Shown here one piece after another: positions 11,869-58,536 of a DNA stretch of 64,000 nucleotides. The position numbers were made by a program, and so were the translations under genes. The number at the start of each line of letters is the position of its first letter. The stretch's first letter is position 1. Source of the stretch: Psychromonas antarctica. GTDB taxonomy: Bacteria > Pseudomonadota > Gammaproteobacteria > Enterobacterales > Psychromonadaceae. The DNA lies in assembly GCF_022267535.1 (NCBI RefSeq), contig NZ_JAHNZV010000004.1:1-64000 (forward strand), given 5' to 3'. Below the pieces are notes generated by a model. It was not told where the DNA came from. It did no database searches and saw nothing but the letters and a program-made list of their open reading frames with translations.

Positions 11869-12864
11869 TTAATGAAGCATACATCGTAATTTGTTTTGGC
11901 CCGACACCCAACATCTGCCAGTATGACTGGCAAACTTATCTAACTCTTCCAATGAGCCGACAGCACAGTGGTAATTTCCACCAAAATGACAAGCCAATTC
12001 CAACCATGTATTGCCATCTAAACCGAGTGTACTCAGCAACCTAGGTATCTTATTTGAAATCCCACCTCGCTTATCTGAACGAATAGCACGGCCAGTCCAA
12101 TCAACCAACTCTAAATAGTCGATGAAAGCATAGGGGATGCCTTGCGGCTGCTCGTTACATTCTCCTGCCACAAAACCGAATAGGGGTTTACTTGTGAAGT
12201 CTGAGCACGTTTTTTCATCATCACAACAACTGCCATGAACACGTTCAAATACAGAGGTGTATTCGGAGGCTTCAACAGTTTCTGCCATTTTTGCGCGCAC
12301 TGGGTTTAAATCAACATACGCCATGCAGGTTAATAAAGCTTTTTCATCCAATAATGCTTGAGACTTAAAGCGGCCTTCCCAGAACCGCCCCTTACAGTTA
12401 TCTTCTTTATTCGCTTTTCGGGCGATAAATTCATTTAATGAACGCATAAACCAAGAAATATCAACTAAACGATGTCGCCATCTAGCGATTACCTCCAATG
12501 CCATAGTAATTTCGGCATCGCTGGTTAACTCACTTTTTAGCCAACGCGATACAATCGGTGAGCCCGAATAAAGTTGACACCAGCGCTTGCAGATATCTTC
12601 ATCTGAACAAGCCTCTATTTCGACTTCATTGGCATGTAAAACAAGATGATAGTGATTAGACATGATGGAATAGGCGCAGACATTAATAGCAAAAATATCA
12701 CTGAGTTGACGAATACGATCAACCATCCATTGACGTCGGTGTGAGAAACTTCGACCGCTGTATTTATCTTCACCACACAAAAAAGCACGCCGAACACAAC
12801 GTGAAATACAGTGGTAATAGGGTGTATCAACAAGTGAAATTAATGTTGAACGTGATTGCGTCAT
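11869..12864 (-). CDS. REP-associated tyrosine transposase (RAYT, Y1/IS200-like)
   Basis: This is a single-strand-DNA transposase-like protein of the HUH/Y1 class, thought to mobilise REP sequences. From the ATG at 12864 (ribosome binding site GGAGG five bases upstream) the product is 331 residues. Visible motifs are the N-terminal YYHCISRCVRRAFLCG, the HUH motif in SNHYHLVL (about residue 73), GRFWEGRFKSQALL and YVDLNPVRA; the tyrosine just before DLNPVRA is the likely nucleophile. A C-terminal region of about 130 residues follows. REP-like repeats in inverted orientation flank the gene on both sides, as expected for a RAYT unit. Confidence 0.88.
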   Translation of the reverse strand: MTQSRSTLISLVDTPYYHCISRCVRRAFLCGEDKYSGRSFSHRRQWMVDRIRQLSDIFAINVCAYSIMSNHYHLVLHANEVEIEACSDEDICKRWCQLYSGSPIVSRWLKSELTSDAEITMALEVIARWRHRLVDISWFMRSLNEFIARKANKEDNCKGRFWEGRFKSQALLDEKALLTCMAYVDLNPVRAKMAETVEASEYTSVFERVHGSCCDDEKTCSDFTSKPLFGFVAGECNEQPQGIPYAFIDYLELVDWTGRAIRSDKRGGISNKIPRLLSTLGLDGNTWLELACHFGGNYHCAVGSLEELDKFASHTGRCWVSGQNKLRCMLH

Positions 12865-12919
12865 ACTTACCTCCACTAGTGTTTATAAAACCACTGGTTA
12901 TATAGTAGGTATAAATTCA

Positions 12920-13004
12920 CAATTCGTCAAAAAGGTATGGATGCCCTCAATTCATCACTCAATTCATCATCAATTCGTCAAAAAGGTATGGATGTCCTCA
13001 ATTC
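12920..13004. repeat. REP-like repeats, right flank of the RAYT gene
   Basis: Two copies (12920-12953 and 12971-13004, period 51) of CAATTCGTCAAAAAGGTATG followed by GATGYCCTCAATTC. The reverse complement matches the left-flank core (GGACATCC...CTTTTT.ACG). Confidence 0.85.
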
Positions 13005-13078
13005 GTCGGGCTAACCGCCCAAGTCAAACTATGCAGCCGTAAGCTCACGAGTTTTTTAACTGCATGAACTTCAGCCAT
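12998..13078 (-). pseudogene. Truncated small ORF cut by the REP repeat
   Basis: A 26-codon frame starts at ATG 13078 with an AAGGA ribosome binding site and begins MAEVHAVKKLVSLRLHSL. It ends at a stop created within the REP-like repeat at 12998. The start is credible, so this may be the 5' scrap of a gene downstream of the DUF2787 gene that was cut by the RAYT unit. The product is not identifiable. Confidence 0.25.
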
Positions 13079-13202
13079 AGTCTGCTTCCTTTTTTGATGT
13101 GAAACGGGGTTTGGGGAACTTCAGAGGGGGTAATTAGAGTAGAGCCTTGCTACACAAGGGATCTCAAGTTCCCAAAATACTAAAATGGGTAGTTGGATTT
13201 CA

Positions 13203-13631
13203 TTACCAAGAATTCACGACTATTTCATCAAAAGCGCCACTTTCCAGATAACACGTAAAGTTACTTTGCCAGAGCTTATAAAACTCTTTTACTTCTGGGT
13301 GAGATAATGGCTTGCCTGCACAACCAATCATGAAGAAAGTCTGCATACTGAAATTGAAATCAAATTCAGTAGCCAACTCCGGATAGGGATAGCCATAATA
13401 AGCAAAGTCTGTTATGTACAACAAATCCCAATTCCCCGTCGATTGATCCTTTTGCATCGAGATTTCAATAGGGTGATAACCGCCCTGTTTATTGTAATAG
13501 GAGAGATCCCTAAAGTTGAGGGTGATTTGAGTATCCTCTTCAGTAATCCGCTTTTGTTTTATTTGCTGGTTTAATTGTTTATGAAACTTCGCTGAAACCT
13601 TTAACGGATTCTGGTTGATTTTAATATCCAT
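13203..13631 (-). CDS. DUF2787 family protein
   Basis: The 142-residue product resembles DUF2787 proteins, which are common in genomic islands of Vibrio and Shewanella and usually lie next to a mobile-type radC. It contains ITLNFRDLSYYNKQGGYHPIE and a C-terminal SHPEVKEFYKLWQSNF segment. No signal peptide or membrane segment is visible. The start overlaps the stop of the radC-like gene by one base (TAATG type), so the two are one transcript. Function is unknown. Confidence 0.75.
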   Translation of the reverse strand: MDIKINQNPLKVSAKFHKQLNQQIKQKRITEEDTQITLNFRDLSYYNKQGGYHPIEISMQKDQSTGNWDLLYITDFAYYGYPYPELATEFDFNFSMQTFFMIGCAGKPLSHPEVKEFYKLWQSNFTCYLESGAFDEIVVNSW

Positions 13632-14107
13632 TAGATTAATCCCCGCTCTGCAAATGATACTGAATTCTTGCCGACGACAATATGATCTAACACCCGCACA
13701 TCAATCAGGGCAAGGGCTTGCTTGAGTCTCACCGTGATGCGTTTATCTGCCTCAGAAGGTTCTGCAATGCCTGACGGGTGGTTATGAGCAAAGATCACCG
13801 CACTGGCATTGGCTGCCATAACCGCTTTTACAACTTCTCGGGGATAAACGCTGGCACTGTCAACTGTGCCGTAAAACAGCTCTCGGTATTCAAGCAATTG
13901 ATTCTGTGTATCCAATAGCATGATCGCGAAGACCTCATTATCAAACTTCCCCAGCTTGTAGCTGAGGAAGTCTATGGTCGCTTGTGCGTTAGTAAAGGCA
14001 CTATCACGGAAGTACTTGGTTGCTAAAATTTCAGATGCTTTTTCTAACACCTGATGATCTGTCATAGGCTTCTGTAGGGTGTAAACCCGATTTGTTTTAG
14101 TGTGCAT
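13631..14107 (-). CDS. radC: RadC/JAB-domain protein of mobile elements
   Basis: The 158-residue product has the JAMM metal motif, with HNHPSGIAEPSEAD (H-x-H ... D) near residue 116. It is shorter than chromosomal RadC (about 220) and lacks the N-terminal helix-hairpin region, like the YeeS/YkfG-type copies on islands. The biochemical role is unsettled. It is transcribed away from alpA and is coupled to the DUF2787 gene. Confidence 0.85.
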   Translation of the reverse strand: MHTKTNRVYTLQKPMTDHQVLEKASEILATKYFRDSAFTNAQATIDFLSYKLGKFDNEVFAIMLLDTQNQLLEYRELFYGTVDSASVYPREVVKAVMAANASAVIFAHNHPSGIAEPSEADKRITVRLKQALALIDVRVLDHIVVGKNSVSFAERGLI

Positions 14108-48912: not shown

Positions 48913-49887
48913 ATGCTTCCCATGTGCCCATTTCTCAATACTACAAATGCAATGATTAATTTTAAGCTTGCAGCGATAATAACTCTGCTAGTTATCTGTT
49001 TTATGCCCCATAACTTATCCGCGCAAGAAGCCTCAAATAAGACAATAGGAAAAACATTAGTCATTGGTAAAGTAAGTGGATCGCCCAAAAAACATCTTAA
49101 ATCCCTAAAATTGCTGGCTAATTACCTTGTTTCTCATATGCAGGATCTTGGTTATACAAAAGGCAAGGTATTACTTTCTCGCAGCGAACAAGAGCTCGCC
49201 AGACACTTACAGCAAGGTGAGATTGATCTCGTGACTGAAACGCCATTTTCAACCATGTATCTTCTAGCAGAGGCGGGGGTAGAGCCTATTTTGCGTAAAT
49301 GGAAAAAAGGCATAGCAGAATATCATTCAGTTATTTTTGTACGTAAGGATAGCGGTATTAATAGGTTGCAAGATTTAAAAGGGAAAACTATCGCATTTGA
49401 GGATCCTAATTCCACAGTTGCATACTATATACCCGCCTATGATCTGATTACGGCAGGACTAAATTTAGAGCAGCTTAACTCACCACGGGAAAAAGCAAAA
49501 ACAGATTTTGCCGGTTATATTTTCTCTCAGCAGGTGATTAACACCTCGCTTTGGGTGCATAAAGGGCGTGTTAATGCAGGGGCAATGAGTAATCTAGATT
49601 GGCAAAAAAATGACCGAATGCCTGACAGTTTTCACCCTGATTTAAAAATAATTCATAGAAGCATCTCTATTCCGCGAGCCATAGAAGTACTCCGTAAGGG
49701 GTTACCCTTTGCGGTCAAAGCGCGCATAAAAATTCTGATGCTTAATATTGATAAAGATCCTGATGCCGATGAGATCCTCAGAAGCTATCAACAAACCCGA
49801 AATTTCGATGAATTAAACGGACAAACATTAAGCCGCTCGAATAAAGTTGATAAGCGACTAAACATAGTCGATGAAGCGACCCAGTAA
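48913..49887 (+). CDS. PhnD-like periplasmic binding protein
   Basis: This is a phosphate/phosphonate-type (PhnD/SBP) solute-binding protein of 324 residues, with a signal sequence ending near MPHNLSAQ (about residue 37). ATG 48913 has an AAGGATC binding site; ATG 48952 is an alternative. The QQGEIDLVTETPFSTMYLL and DLKGKTIAFEDPNSTVAYYI segments are typical of the fold. No ABC permease or ATPase is nearby. Instead its stop overlaps the start of a membrane GGDEF protein (TAATG), suggesting that it is the ligand sensor for that enzyme. Confidence 0.85.
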   Translation: MLPMCPFLNTTNAMINFKLAAIITLLVICFMPHNLSAQEASNKTIGKTLVIGKVSGSPKKHLKSLKLLANYLVSHMQDLGYTKGKVLLSRSEQELARHLQQGEIDLVTETPFSTMYLLAEAGVEPILRKWKKGIAEYHSVIFVRKDSGINRLQDLKGKTIAFEDPNSTVAYYIPAYDLITAGLNLEQLNSPREKAKTDFAGYIFSQQVINTSLWVHKGRVNAGAMSNLDWQKNDRMPDSFHPDLKIIHRSISIPRAIEVLRKGLPFAVKARIKILMLNIDKDPDADEILRSYQQTRNFDELNGQTLSRSNKVDKRLNIVDEATQ

Positions 49888-51245
49888 TGCGCCTTAGAAC
49901 ACAATATTCAATCGCTATGGTGCTTCTTATCGGCATAGCCGTCACTTTCATGTCTGCTATTTTATTTTACCAGTTTAGTAAAAACGCCAGAGTTCAACAG
50001 ACAGTCAGTACCGAAGCTATCTCTGACGCAATCATCCTGCAAATAATGAAGCGCGGCGAATTTATGACCAATTCTTTTTCGCGTTATCTTGTCGATGATA
50101 TTTACTATGAAAATCAAGCTAAAATAACACAAGCGCTACAGTCAAGTTTGACACAACAAGATCTCTTGTTTATTGAAATTTTTGATCCTAAGGGCTATAT
50201 CATCAATGATGGCAGTGTTGAGTTATGGGCGTTTGGCAATCAGGTTAACGATCCACAGATGCTCAATGCGATTCGAAAATCAGATAATATATATACACGT
50301 ATTGAAGCGGATAAAGTGATCTTTGCACGCAGCATTAAAATTGACGACGAGGTTATCGCTGGGATCCATCTGGGTTTCTCTTTACTGTATATCCAAAAGG
50401 ATATATCAAAGATGGAAAAGACCTTACAAAAGGAATTAACTGAGCTTAGTGAAAGGGATTTTCAAAAAAATATTTTCATCGTCATTGTCGCTTCCTTGCT
50501 GCTACTGATTGTCGGCATAATAATGGCAATATTCACCGCCAATAAATTAACACAGCCAATTCATCAACTTGCTCTGCATGCGCGAAAAGCAGGCAAGGGG
50601 GATCACCTGAATAGAATTGAGCTTAACCGCTCCGATGAGCTAGGCCAACTGGCCGCCATCTTTAATAAAATGAATCGTCGTTTACTTAAAAATAAAAAAG
50701 AAATCCATTATCAAGCTTTTCACGATCACCTGACCGGGCTCGCCAATCGGAATATGTTTAACAAATATATTAATGAGACCCTGCAACAAGCCGCAAATCA
50801 GAAAAAACAAGTGACGGTCTTGTTTTTAGATCTAGATGGTTTTAAAGCGATTAATGATACGTTTGGCCATGAAGTTGGTGATAAGCTGCTGATTGTTATA
50901 GCTGAGCGCTTTAACGCCGTGATTCGTAAACAAGATAGTATCAAGTTCGCAGAGCTGCCCAACAATATGCTGGTTTCACGTATTGGCGGTGATGAATTTA
51001 CCATAGTATTGCAGGACATTGGAGAAAAACAGATTGTCTCGCAGATTGCCAGCCGCATTATACGGTCAATCGCTTCTCCAATAGAGTTAAGTGGAGAACA
51101 GCTGAATATTGGTGTCAGTATTGGTATTAGTATCTAGCCGGAAGATGGCGGTGATGTCGATACTTTGATTAAAAATGCAGACAGTGCAATGTATCAAGCA
51201 AAAAATAAAGGCAAAGGATGTTATGCCTTTTTTAAGCAAACTTAA
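49887..51245 (+). pseudogene. HAMP-GGDEF diguanylate cyclase interrupted by an amber codon
   Basis: The first frame gives 416 residues: membrane segment (about 8-28), periplasmic sensor, second membrane segment (about 192-215), HAMP, and a GGDEF domain with intact signature RIGGDEFTI (about 369). It stops at TAG 51135-51137 after IGISI. The same frame then continues PEDGGDVDTLIKNADSAMYQ AKNKGKG to a TAA at 51243, exactly the expected end of a GGDEF domain. The stop therefore replaces one codon, most likely Tyr of the common SIGISIYPEDG. Either the gene is a recent pseudogene or the amber is suppressed. It is coupled to the PhnD-like gene. Confidence 0.85.
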
Positions 51246-53769: not shown

Positions 53770-55689
53770 CTAATGATGATGACTTTTTAGTAAACTTTGC
53801 GGTATTAATTCAGCAATAAAACGGCGCGCACCACGGCGTAATAAAGAGCTGAAATATAAGAGTAATATAATCGTTAAACTGCCTATATTCCACCAACTAT
53901 AAGCCGTATCCGGCTGCGCTAACCAAGGCAGTGAAATTACATCGATATATTGATTAAGTGCTAAACCAATCAAAAAAGCACCACCTAACATCAACATTGC
54001 TAAACTGATTGCAGCAAAAATACCCTGCTGCTGTTTGAATGTTTGCAAAAATTCCAGACTAATGGTTGGAGCGATAAGTAAGAAAGCGATCGCAGCTCCC
54101 GGCGATAAGCCTGCTATGAGTAAAACAGCAATCACAGGGGTAATACCCGTTGCGCACAATGATAATGGCAATGCAACGATAATCATCACCAGTATTTGCA
54201 ACCACAAAGCCTGATCAAAAAACGCCCAAGCAGGTGTTGCAGAGAGTGTCGCGGCCAGTGTCCAACCGAGTAACACCCATGGTGCGGTATGATCAAGCTG
54301 ATGTTGATACCCCTGCCGGATGGCATTGATAAATCGAGAGGTTGATTTTTCTCCCTGCCCACTTATCGTCAGCGCTGCACAAGGGGCTGTTGTGAAGTGG
54401 CGTCCTAATAACCAAGCGACAGCACATGCAAAAACAGTCGCCAAAGCGATACGTAGTAGCAGCATCTGCACGCCCAACAGGGGCAGAGAGATAAGTAGCG
54501 CATCAAAACCGATAATCGGTGCTGCAATTAAAAAAGCGGTCGCAAAGGTTTGGCTCGCCCCCATATCCAATAATTGCTGATGCATTTTACGGGCAGAGGG
54601 TGAACAAACAGGTAAAGGTAAACCATAAAGAACCCCTTTTAAGCTGTCTTTTAAAAAAGATTGGCTGTTTTGTTGAGGCAGTATGGCGAATTTGGGTTTG
54701 AAGTAATGCATTAATCCACTTAACAGATATGCAAGCAGTAACATCGGCGCGCTGTGCAAGGCTATATTAGTAAAATTTAGCAGTGTTAATGCGGTCTCGT
54801 GGCTTTGATGATTTACCGCATCACCAAGCTGCTGATGATCGTCGTCCATCTCCTCTTGATGTAGGGGCATACTCAGCGCTTGAGAATCATCTTGTACTGC
54901 GGTTAGCAGCGTATCACTGTTTTGTAATGCCATTGAGTGAACAATTTCAGTACTATTATCATGACTATCCTCAATATAACCTAGCCAATGCGGTAGAAGC
55001 ACAGAAGCTAATACAATCACACCTAACAAACTACCAATTCCTGCTGCGTATCTATTTTCGTTGCTTGTCTCGTGCGCACTATGAACGTGAGCATGGCCGT
55101 GTAGATAAGGGCGATGCAGCACAACATGCATAATAGATCCCATCACAAAGGCTTGAAACCAAGCTAACCATTGCCCATCCAGTTGTAACAGTGAGTCACC
55201 CGCTAATAGTCCACCGCCTAATGTTGCAGCAGACATGGTCAGTAAAATAGCGAGCGGTAATAACCGTCCATACTGAGGACGTAATAACCACCAAATCGTT
55301 AAGCCCACCGGGAAACGGTGCAATAACACACCAATAGCAAGTAACCAGCCAGTATGATCAGCTTCAGAAACGATTAAAGCGGAGCCATCAATGCTGGCAT
55401 GCAAAACTAAACCCAGTACGCCTAAGAACAGGGTTGTCTGATGTGCTTGATGTGCCGCTCTATGAAAGTATTTCTCTATCCAGCTGGGTGCAAGCATACC
55501 CATGGCCATCAGCAATAACACCATGAATCCGCCTGTGTGCAGGATTTCAGGCAGGATATGCAAAAAGACTAGGCCAGAAATAGTGACGAAAATAAAAGCA
55601 TCAAGTAGATCCAGCCAACCGGGTTGGCGCTGAAATAAGCGGTAGGTAATTGGGCCGAGAAAAAGTGCAAAAATACTTAATAACAACAT
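53770..55689 (-). CDS. ZIP-like/DUF318 permease fusion transporter
   Basis: The 639-residue polytopic membrane protein appears to join two transporter types. The N-terminal part (about 1-250) has ZIP-like signature helices LHASIDGSAL and LHRFPVGL, resembling the metal-binding TM4/TM5 of ZIP zinc transporters. A His/Asp-rich loop follows (HGHAHVHSAHE; MPLHQEEMDDDHQQ). The C-terminal part (about 310-625) is a permease with GLPLPVCSPSA like the PLC-containing motif of DUF318/ArsP-type proteins. It starts 66 bp after arsJ, with a perfect Zur-box-like palindrome in the gap, so zinc-responsive expression is likely. Direction of transport is uncertain. Confidence 0.75.
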   Translation of the reverse strand: MLLLSIFALFLGPITYRLFQRQPGWLDLLDAFIFVTISGLVFLHILPEILHTGGFMVLLLMAMGMLAPSWIEKYFHRAAHQAHQTTLFLGVLGLVLHASIDGSALIVSEADHTGWLLAIGVLLHRFPVGLTIWWLLRPQYGRLLPLAILLTMSAATLGGGLLAGDSLLQLDGQWLAWFQAFVMGSIMHVVLHRPYLHGHAHVHSAHETSNENRYAAGIGSLLGVIVLASVLLPHWLGYIEDSHDNSTEIVHSMALQNSDTLLTAVQDDSQALSMPLHQEEMDDDHQQLGDAVNHQSHETALTLLNFTNIALHSAPMLLLAYLLSGLMHYFKPKFAILPQQNSQSFLKDSLKGVLYGLPLPVCSPSARKMHQQLLDMGASQTFATAFLIAAPIIGFDALLISLPLLGVQMLLLRIALATVFACAVAWLLGRHFTTAPCAALTISGQGEKSTSRFINAIRQGYQHQLDHTAPWVLLGWTLAATLSATPAWAFFDQALWLQILVMIIVALPLSLCATGITPVIAVLLIAGLSPGAAIAFLLIAPTISLEFLQTFKQQQGIFAAISLAMLMLGGAFLIGLALNQYIDVISLPWLAQPDTAYSWWNIGSLTIILLLYFSSLLRRGARRFIAELIPQSLLKSHHH

Positions 55690-55716
55690 TAAAATAGTCT
55701 CAATAAATTTCTATTT

Positions 55717-55731
55717 TGTTATATTATAACA
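55717..55731. promoter_or_regulatory. Zur-box-like operator
   Basis: TGTTATATTATAACA is a perfect inverted repeat about one central base, as in the gammaproteobacterial Zur consensus (GTTATAnTATAAC). It is 28-42 bp upstream of the transporter start and includes a TATAAT -10 candidate on the minus strand, which fits repression. Confidence 0.7.
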
Positions 55732-58020: not shown

Positions 58021-58536
58021 TTATTGTGACTTGAGGCTTTGATCCAACGCGTTCAAATAATCGCGTTGGCAAACGTGTGTAAAAGCATTCGCTCGAACAG
58101 CCTGAATACACGCCATTGTTGGTTCCATGCATTCACCACGCTGCAAAAGAATCTGCGCAGCAAGCAAACCGGTGCGCCCCGAGCCTCCTTTACAGTGAAT
58201 GGCGATGCTTTTTCCTTGTGTAAGGAGACACTGCACTGCAGGTCCGGCGTTTTTCCAAGCTCGCAAAAACTCTGCTTCTGGAATATGATCATCAACAATG
58301 GGTAGGTGAAACCAGCTCATCCCCTGCGCGATGACTGCTTCGCCAATCCCCGACAAACTGTTTTTTTCCAGCTCACTGTGCGTCATTAAAGTCAGCACCG
58401 CCTCAGCACCTGCTGCTTTTAGCTGTTCAAGAGAAGCAATCAGTGCTGCGCCTTTTGTACCGGGACAGGGCGTTAAAATTATTTTTGCCGCGCTGTCTGC
58501 AATGGGGATCGGGAAAATGGGATGTATGACTGACAT
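58021..58536 (-). CDS. Tyrosine/dual-specificity-type phosphatase of the arsJ operon
   Basis: The 171-residue protein has the PTP signature HCKGGSGRTG (HCX5R) near residue 114 and an LPIVDDHIPE acid loop. It resembles CDKN3-type phosphatases found beside gapdh-arsJ in other marine gammaproteobacteria. Its role there is unsettled. It is first in the operon phosphatase-gapdh-arsJ; no clear operator is seen in the 100 bp upstream. Confidence 0.85.
   Translation of the reverse strand: MSVIHPIFPIPIADSAAKIILTPCPGTKGAALIASLEQLKAAGAEAVLTLMTHSELEKNSLSGIGEAVIAQGMSWFHLPIVDDHIPEAEFLRAWKNAGPAVQCLLTQGKSIAIHCKGGSGRTGLLAAQILLQRGECMEPTMACIQAVRANAFTHVCQRDYLNALDQSLKSQ

Follow-up and report, generated by a model that had tools for sequence, protein, structure and literature searches.

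Among the relatives of the permease half of the fusion protein described here, SO_0444 has been characterised: it is required for growth under zinc/copper stress, has been termed an efflux protein, and was proposed to be under ZntR-type control (PMC3219624). The counterparts of the other half are the ZIP zinc transporters (ZupT/GufA/BbZIP), and the metal site of BbZIP comprises M99, H177, N178, E181, Q207, D208, E211, and E240 (PMC9873690). ZnuABC, which also takes up zinc, is an ABC importer with a separate binding protein and ATPase. ArsP_1 relatives of the permease half are annotated as organoarsenical exporters. The proteobacterial Zur box has the 23-bp consensus GAAATGTTATA-N-TATAACATTTC (PMC4219657). 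A literature search, mostly open-access and with Zur regulon databases outside its scope, returned no description of Zur together with DUF318, COG0701, or Psychromonas. The 639-aa membrane protein is apparently uncharacterised, and an earlier annotation may exist.

We analysed a 64,000-nucleotide stretch (the window) from the 3.9 Mb draft genome of Psychromonas antarctica. The minus strand at 53770-55689 encodes, from an ATG start, a 639-aa fusion protein consisting of a ZIP-like half, a linker, and an ArsP_1/SO_0444-like permease half. On the same strand, the ZIP-like half comprises residues 1-240 (54970-55689), with eight predicted helices (low confidence) oriented N-out/C-out by the positive-inside rule. 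The linker comprises about residues 238-302 (54784-54978), is predicted to be periplasmic, and contains 6 His. The permease half comprises about residues 303-639 (53773-54783); it carries the motifs CSP and CATGITP, and its short C-terminal tail ends in His. The sequence-only reading had joined two such halves through a His-rich loop. The results showed that the two-part architecture is borne out by profile matches, full-length orthologs, and conservation across genera, but that the loop is only weakly His-rich in the Psychromonas antarctica copy. The fusion and its ZIP and ArsP_1 ancestry are well supported by these comparisons. AlphaFold2 gave a pLDDT of 41 and a pTM of 0.24 for the full 639-aa protein (13 close sequences in the alignment), and 47 and 0.32, respectively, for the ZIP-like half alone. 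Since both models are of very low confidence, the two putative folds are assigned from profiles and topology.

Almost every Psychromonas genome contains a full-length fusion, as do genomes of six further families of the order (f2, f6, f12, f15, f16, and f20). In f8, f13, and some members of f6, the ZIP-like half occurs on its own. The named relatives of the fusion protein were all from Psychromonas, and a search for plasmid-borne relatives gave none. As far as the compared genomes indicate, the fusion is ancient and no local accident. In the f6 fusions, the permease half lacked the stretch bearing the first Cys motif, and one tested f6 protein gave no Pfam match for this half, which by its sequence is decaying or repurposed. 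In f6 fusions L190-L193 and L199-L201, the first-repeat motif is lost, the ZIP-like half is intact, and the C-terminal His tail is longer.

Next to the fusion gene, the sequence-only reading had placed a perfect Zur-box palindrome over the -10 box. This was confirmed: the operator core TGTTATAATATAACA (palindromic, no strand assigned) is exact at 55717-55731, contains the TATAAT hexamer, and lies 27 bp before the ATG. Its inner 15 bp agree exactly with the 23-bp consensus, and the outer 4+4 bases agree only partly. The next-best Zur site in the window had 2 mismatches, and the whole genome contained one other perfect Zur box and two copies with 1 mismatch. The second perfect copy sits in the zur-znuC interval, with a 1-mismatch copy ahead of zur; the remaining 1-mismatch copy falls where two convergent genes meet and is probably there by chance. 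Sites with 2 mismatches occurred at chance level (control counts 43 against 24 per strand).

Upstream DNA was available for 20 Psychromonas fusions, and 18 of them are preceded by a box with 0-1 mismatch, several of these boxes being in tandem. The sampled f2 fusions had perfect boxes. Those sampled from f12, f15, and f16 had boxes with 1-3 mismatches about 40-50 bp before the start, and shuffling reproduced those put to this test at a frequency of 0.01 or less; G097 (f15) was the exception. No such box was found upstream of the f20 and f6 fusions or of the single-domain ZIP-like relatives, indicating that Zur control is not universal. The unboxed Psychromonas fusions were those of G022 and G017, which were also the only tested members of the genus that lack a zur ortholog. 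G022 (one contig) showed no zur match at all and no such box anywhere in its genome, and G017 showed only a Fur-level match, while the other genus members tested showed a strong zur match. The chance of this co-loss is 1 in 190 (18 boxed, 2 unboxed) assuming independent genomes, which these are not, and the pattern consists of two losses, including one in a draft genome. Zur control of the fusion gene is very likely, judging from the operator and its occurrence.

In its own genome, the fusion accompanies a locus that holds zur, znuC, znuB, and znuA. ZnuA was undetected in the Psychromonas genomes G001, G004, G005, G017, G021, and G022 (G001 and G004 being incomplete), in the f15 genomes G037, G061, and G097, and in 7 of the 10 f16 genomes, all of which carry the fusion. 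A ZnuB-type permease was also undetected in G005, G017, and G022, and no second ZIP-family match was seen in G005, G017, G021, or G022. In the complete genome of G005, which has zur, the only perfect Zur boxes were the two before the fusion. ZnuA was present in all three fusion-less genus members, G012, G014, and G018. The pattern of ZnuA absence was noticed post hoc, during inspection of the genomes without a box. Because several genomes keep a Zur-boxed fusion without detectable ZnuA, the fusion protein is probably a stand-in zinc importer; other importers could also supply zinc in these genomes. As a separate observation, G022 and G017, which lack both zur and ZnuA, keep the fusion unboxed.

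The earlier reading had taken Zur and the ZIP label together as pointing to zinc uptake, and the DUF318 kinship as pointing to export. Zur control was upheld by conservation across genera and by loss of the box with the regulator, and zinc uptake is still the best reading in view of the genomes without ZnuA, but the ZIP label by itself proved insufficient. The gene product is probably an inner-membrane zinc importer under Zur repression, which operates alongside ZnuABC and, in some relatives, takes its place. As cell zinc drops, Zur would dissociate from the operator, which overlaps the -10 hexamer, and expression would begin; the acidic, His-containing linker would collect zinc in the periplasm, and the membrane halves would move it to the cytoplasm. 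That the fusion carries zinc is likely, and inward transport is the favoured direction. We infer the zinc cargo, the inward direction, the periplasmic position of the linker, and the cooperation of the halves from sequence comparisons.

The linker of the Psychromonas antarctica copy has 65 aa with 6 His and 14 Asp/Glu and is thus modestly His-rich. In most Psychromonas orthologs it forms a long His/Asp/Glu repeat, often in tandem units, and among Psychromonas and f2 relatives its length goes up to 199 aa and its His count to 64; in f6, f12, f15, f16, and f20 it is short (9-38 aa). Its composition resembles that of the His/Asp/Glu loop of ZnuA from the same genome. The fusion shares with the ZnuABC system the Zur operator and a linker comparable to the His-rich acidic loop of ZnuA, but differs in having neither the separate binding protein nor the ATPase of an ABC importer, and no sequence kinship between the two is claimed.

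In the permease half, ArsP_1 (PF03773) matched residues 306-578 over nearly its whole profile, with 81.7 bits against a cut-off of 32.3. The best NCBIfam match was the SO_0444 Cu/Zn efflux family (NF033936), with 129.7 bits against an equivalog cut-off of 300. The half retains the LPxC motif and the CAT..TP motif of the second repeat, but the CSC motif of the intact paralog has become CSP, with the second Cys gone, and reads CIP, CVP, or CLP in relatives. Since it falls short of both the curated cut-off and the CSC motif, its resemblance to SO_0444 indicates ancestry rather than membership. The fusion further differs from that family in being joined to a ZIP-like half and in having a Zur box in place of the proposed ZntR-type control. 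The same genome encodes an intact SO_0444-family Cu/Zn efflux paralog (L064; G000:C265, about 12440-13700), which scored 504.9 bits and has a CSCG motif; no Zur box was found at this paralog. Its presence argues against the fusion serving as the efflux gene of this genome.

These results bear on the strongest alternative, in which the protein is an SO_0444-type zinc/copper transporter for efflux or periplasmic buffering, with Zur acting as an activator or with the gene handling rebound zinc after starvation. The permease half is indeed nearest to SO_0444, whose mutant is Zn- and Cu-sensitive (PMC3219624), and Zur is known to activate efflux genes in some bacteria (PMC6103462), which counts against the importer. 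However, the box overlaps the -10 hexamer and lies near the start codon in relatives, which is the position of a repressor. The lost Cys, the low family score, the separate unboxed paralog, and the persistence of the fusion in genomes without ZnuA also oppose efflux, and we regard this alternative as unlikely.

The ZIP-like half was further compared with canonical ZIPs. Zip (PF02535) scored 27.2 bits on the fusion against a cut-off of 35.1 (hmmscan), and 36.6 bits in the genome search, in which the scores along the frame were added up. We then built one profile from the N-terminal half and another from the canonical ZIPs of related genomes and aligned the two (hhalign). The results showed a near-full-length match of residues 24-226 to positions 35-251 of ZIP, with a probability of 92 and an E-value of 5.7e-7, which is a pairwise and not a database value. 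In the controls, setting the permease half against ZIP gave 0.1, and comparing the two halves of the fusion with one another gave 2.7. Hydropathy and the positive-inside rule predicted eight helices with both the N and C ends outside in the ortholog L043, and this topology places the linker in the periplasm. Foldseek and VIA-align searches with the low-confidence model of this half (pLDDT 47) returned nothing with E < 0.001 and no standout match, BbZIP entries appearing amid unrelated folds (5tsb at rank 12; 7z6n with Z 5.0). Profile searches of PDB sequences gave no match.

In the profile alignment, H177, N178, E181, Q207, D208, and E211 of BbZIP corresponded to H97, A98, D101, H124, R125, and V128 of the fusion, and E240 corresponded to L157. 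Two residues of the binuclear centre, H97 and D101, are thus kept, and H124 replaces Q207, while N178, D208, E211, and E240 are substituted. H97, D101, H124, R125, H188, and H192 were invariant across the fusions and the aligned stand-alone relatives. The fusion therefore resembles ZIP transporters in its matching region, eight helices, N-out/C-out topology, H97, and D101, but differs from them in having A98, R125, V128, and L157 at ligand positions and, for the single protein, in scoring below the Pfam cut-off. By these comparisons, the ZIP half is divergent and remodelled. As most canonical metal ligands are gone, "ZIP" cannot serve here as a simple label for zinc uptake, and the loss of most of the binuclear centre also counts against the importer reading.

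The missing ligands and the conserved R125 in the metal path would fit a second alternative as well, in which the protein moves a cargo other than free zinc under zinc starvation, such as a zinc-chelating small molecule, and the His-rich parts merely hold metal. The annotation of ArsP_1 relatives as organoarsenical exporters points the same way. However, the annotated loci showed no recognisable metallophore-type gene next to the fusion, the neighbours vary by family, and the linker suits direct metal binding, making this alternative quite improbable. A third, in which the ZIP-like half serves the permease half as a sensor or regulatory domain and transports nothing itself, would account for the loss of most ZIP ligands alongside the strong conservation of a different set, but it is the least probable, because the ZIP-like half stands alone in f8 and f13 and it is the permease half that has decayed in f6, both of which indicate that the ZIP-like half has an independent role.

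Beyond the zinc importer as such, a new importer design is conceivable, although we hold it to be somewhat doubtful. In this design, the rebuilt ZIP-derived half (H97, D101, H124, and R125) and the SO_0444-derived half would work as one unit, fed by the periplasmic His/Asp/Glu linker, and would replace ZnuABC as the main Zur-controlled zinc uptake in several marine gammaproteobacteria. If the protein is a zinc importer, it would reveal a zinc acquisition route for genomes that have neither ZnuABC nor a recognised canonical ZIP, and would add a non-ABC member to the Zur regulon. It would also unite an efflux-type family and an uptake-type family in one polypeptide, and its rebuilt ZIP site, in which an arginine is conserved, would serve as a test of what metal movement requires of the ZIP fold. 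Automatic annotation from the permease half alone would name an efflux or organoarsenical permease, probably with the wrong direction.

The arsenate operon that the sequence-only reading had noted beside the gene is real, with ArsJ at 583 bits and the ArsJ-associated GAPDH at 533 bits, both above their cut-offs, but its link to the fusion is incidental. The two genes lie directly upstream of the fusion on the same strand, as they do in some relatives, and transcription could read through from arsJ into the fusion. At many orthologous loci, for example L050-L056, the box and the fusion are kept and arsJ and GAPDH are absent; in other families, the neighbours of the fusion are unrelated housekeeping genes. 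A link between the fusion and arsenate resistance was rejected, as the neighbours are not conserved.

In the fusion-less genomes G014 and G018, a Zur-boxed canonical ZIP was considered as a replacement for the fusion and rejected, since their ZIP genes carry no box. G014 does have a perfect Zur box elsewhere, at G014:C124:2806-2820 (L218, box at 1501-1515), 50 bp before a 213-aa ORF. This ORF probably encodes a secreted DUF1007-type protein and is possibly another Zur-controlled metal gene. Adjoining the arsJ-GAPDH pair in the window, a 171-aa ORF at 58021-58536 (minus strand) has a CxGGxGRTG phosphatase-type motif; it stays beside hemY in relatives without arsJ, indicating that it belongs to an older neighbourhood. 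At 48913-51137 (plus strand), an ORF resembling substrate-binding proteins runs into the start of a HAMP-GGDEF-like one, and their translations suggest a paired sensor that responds to an anionic ligand.
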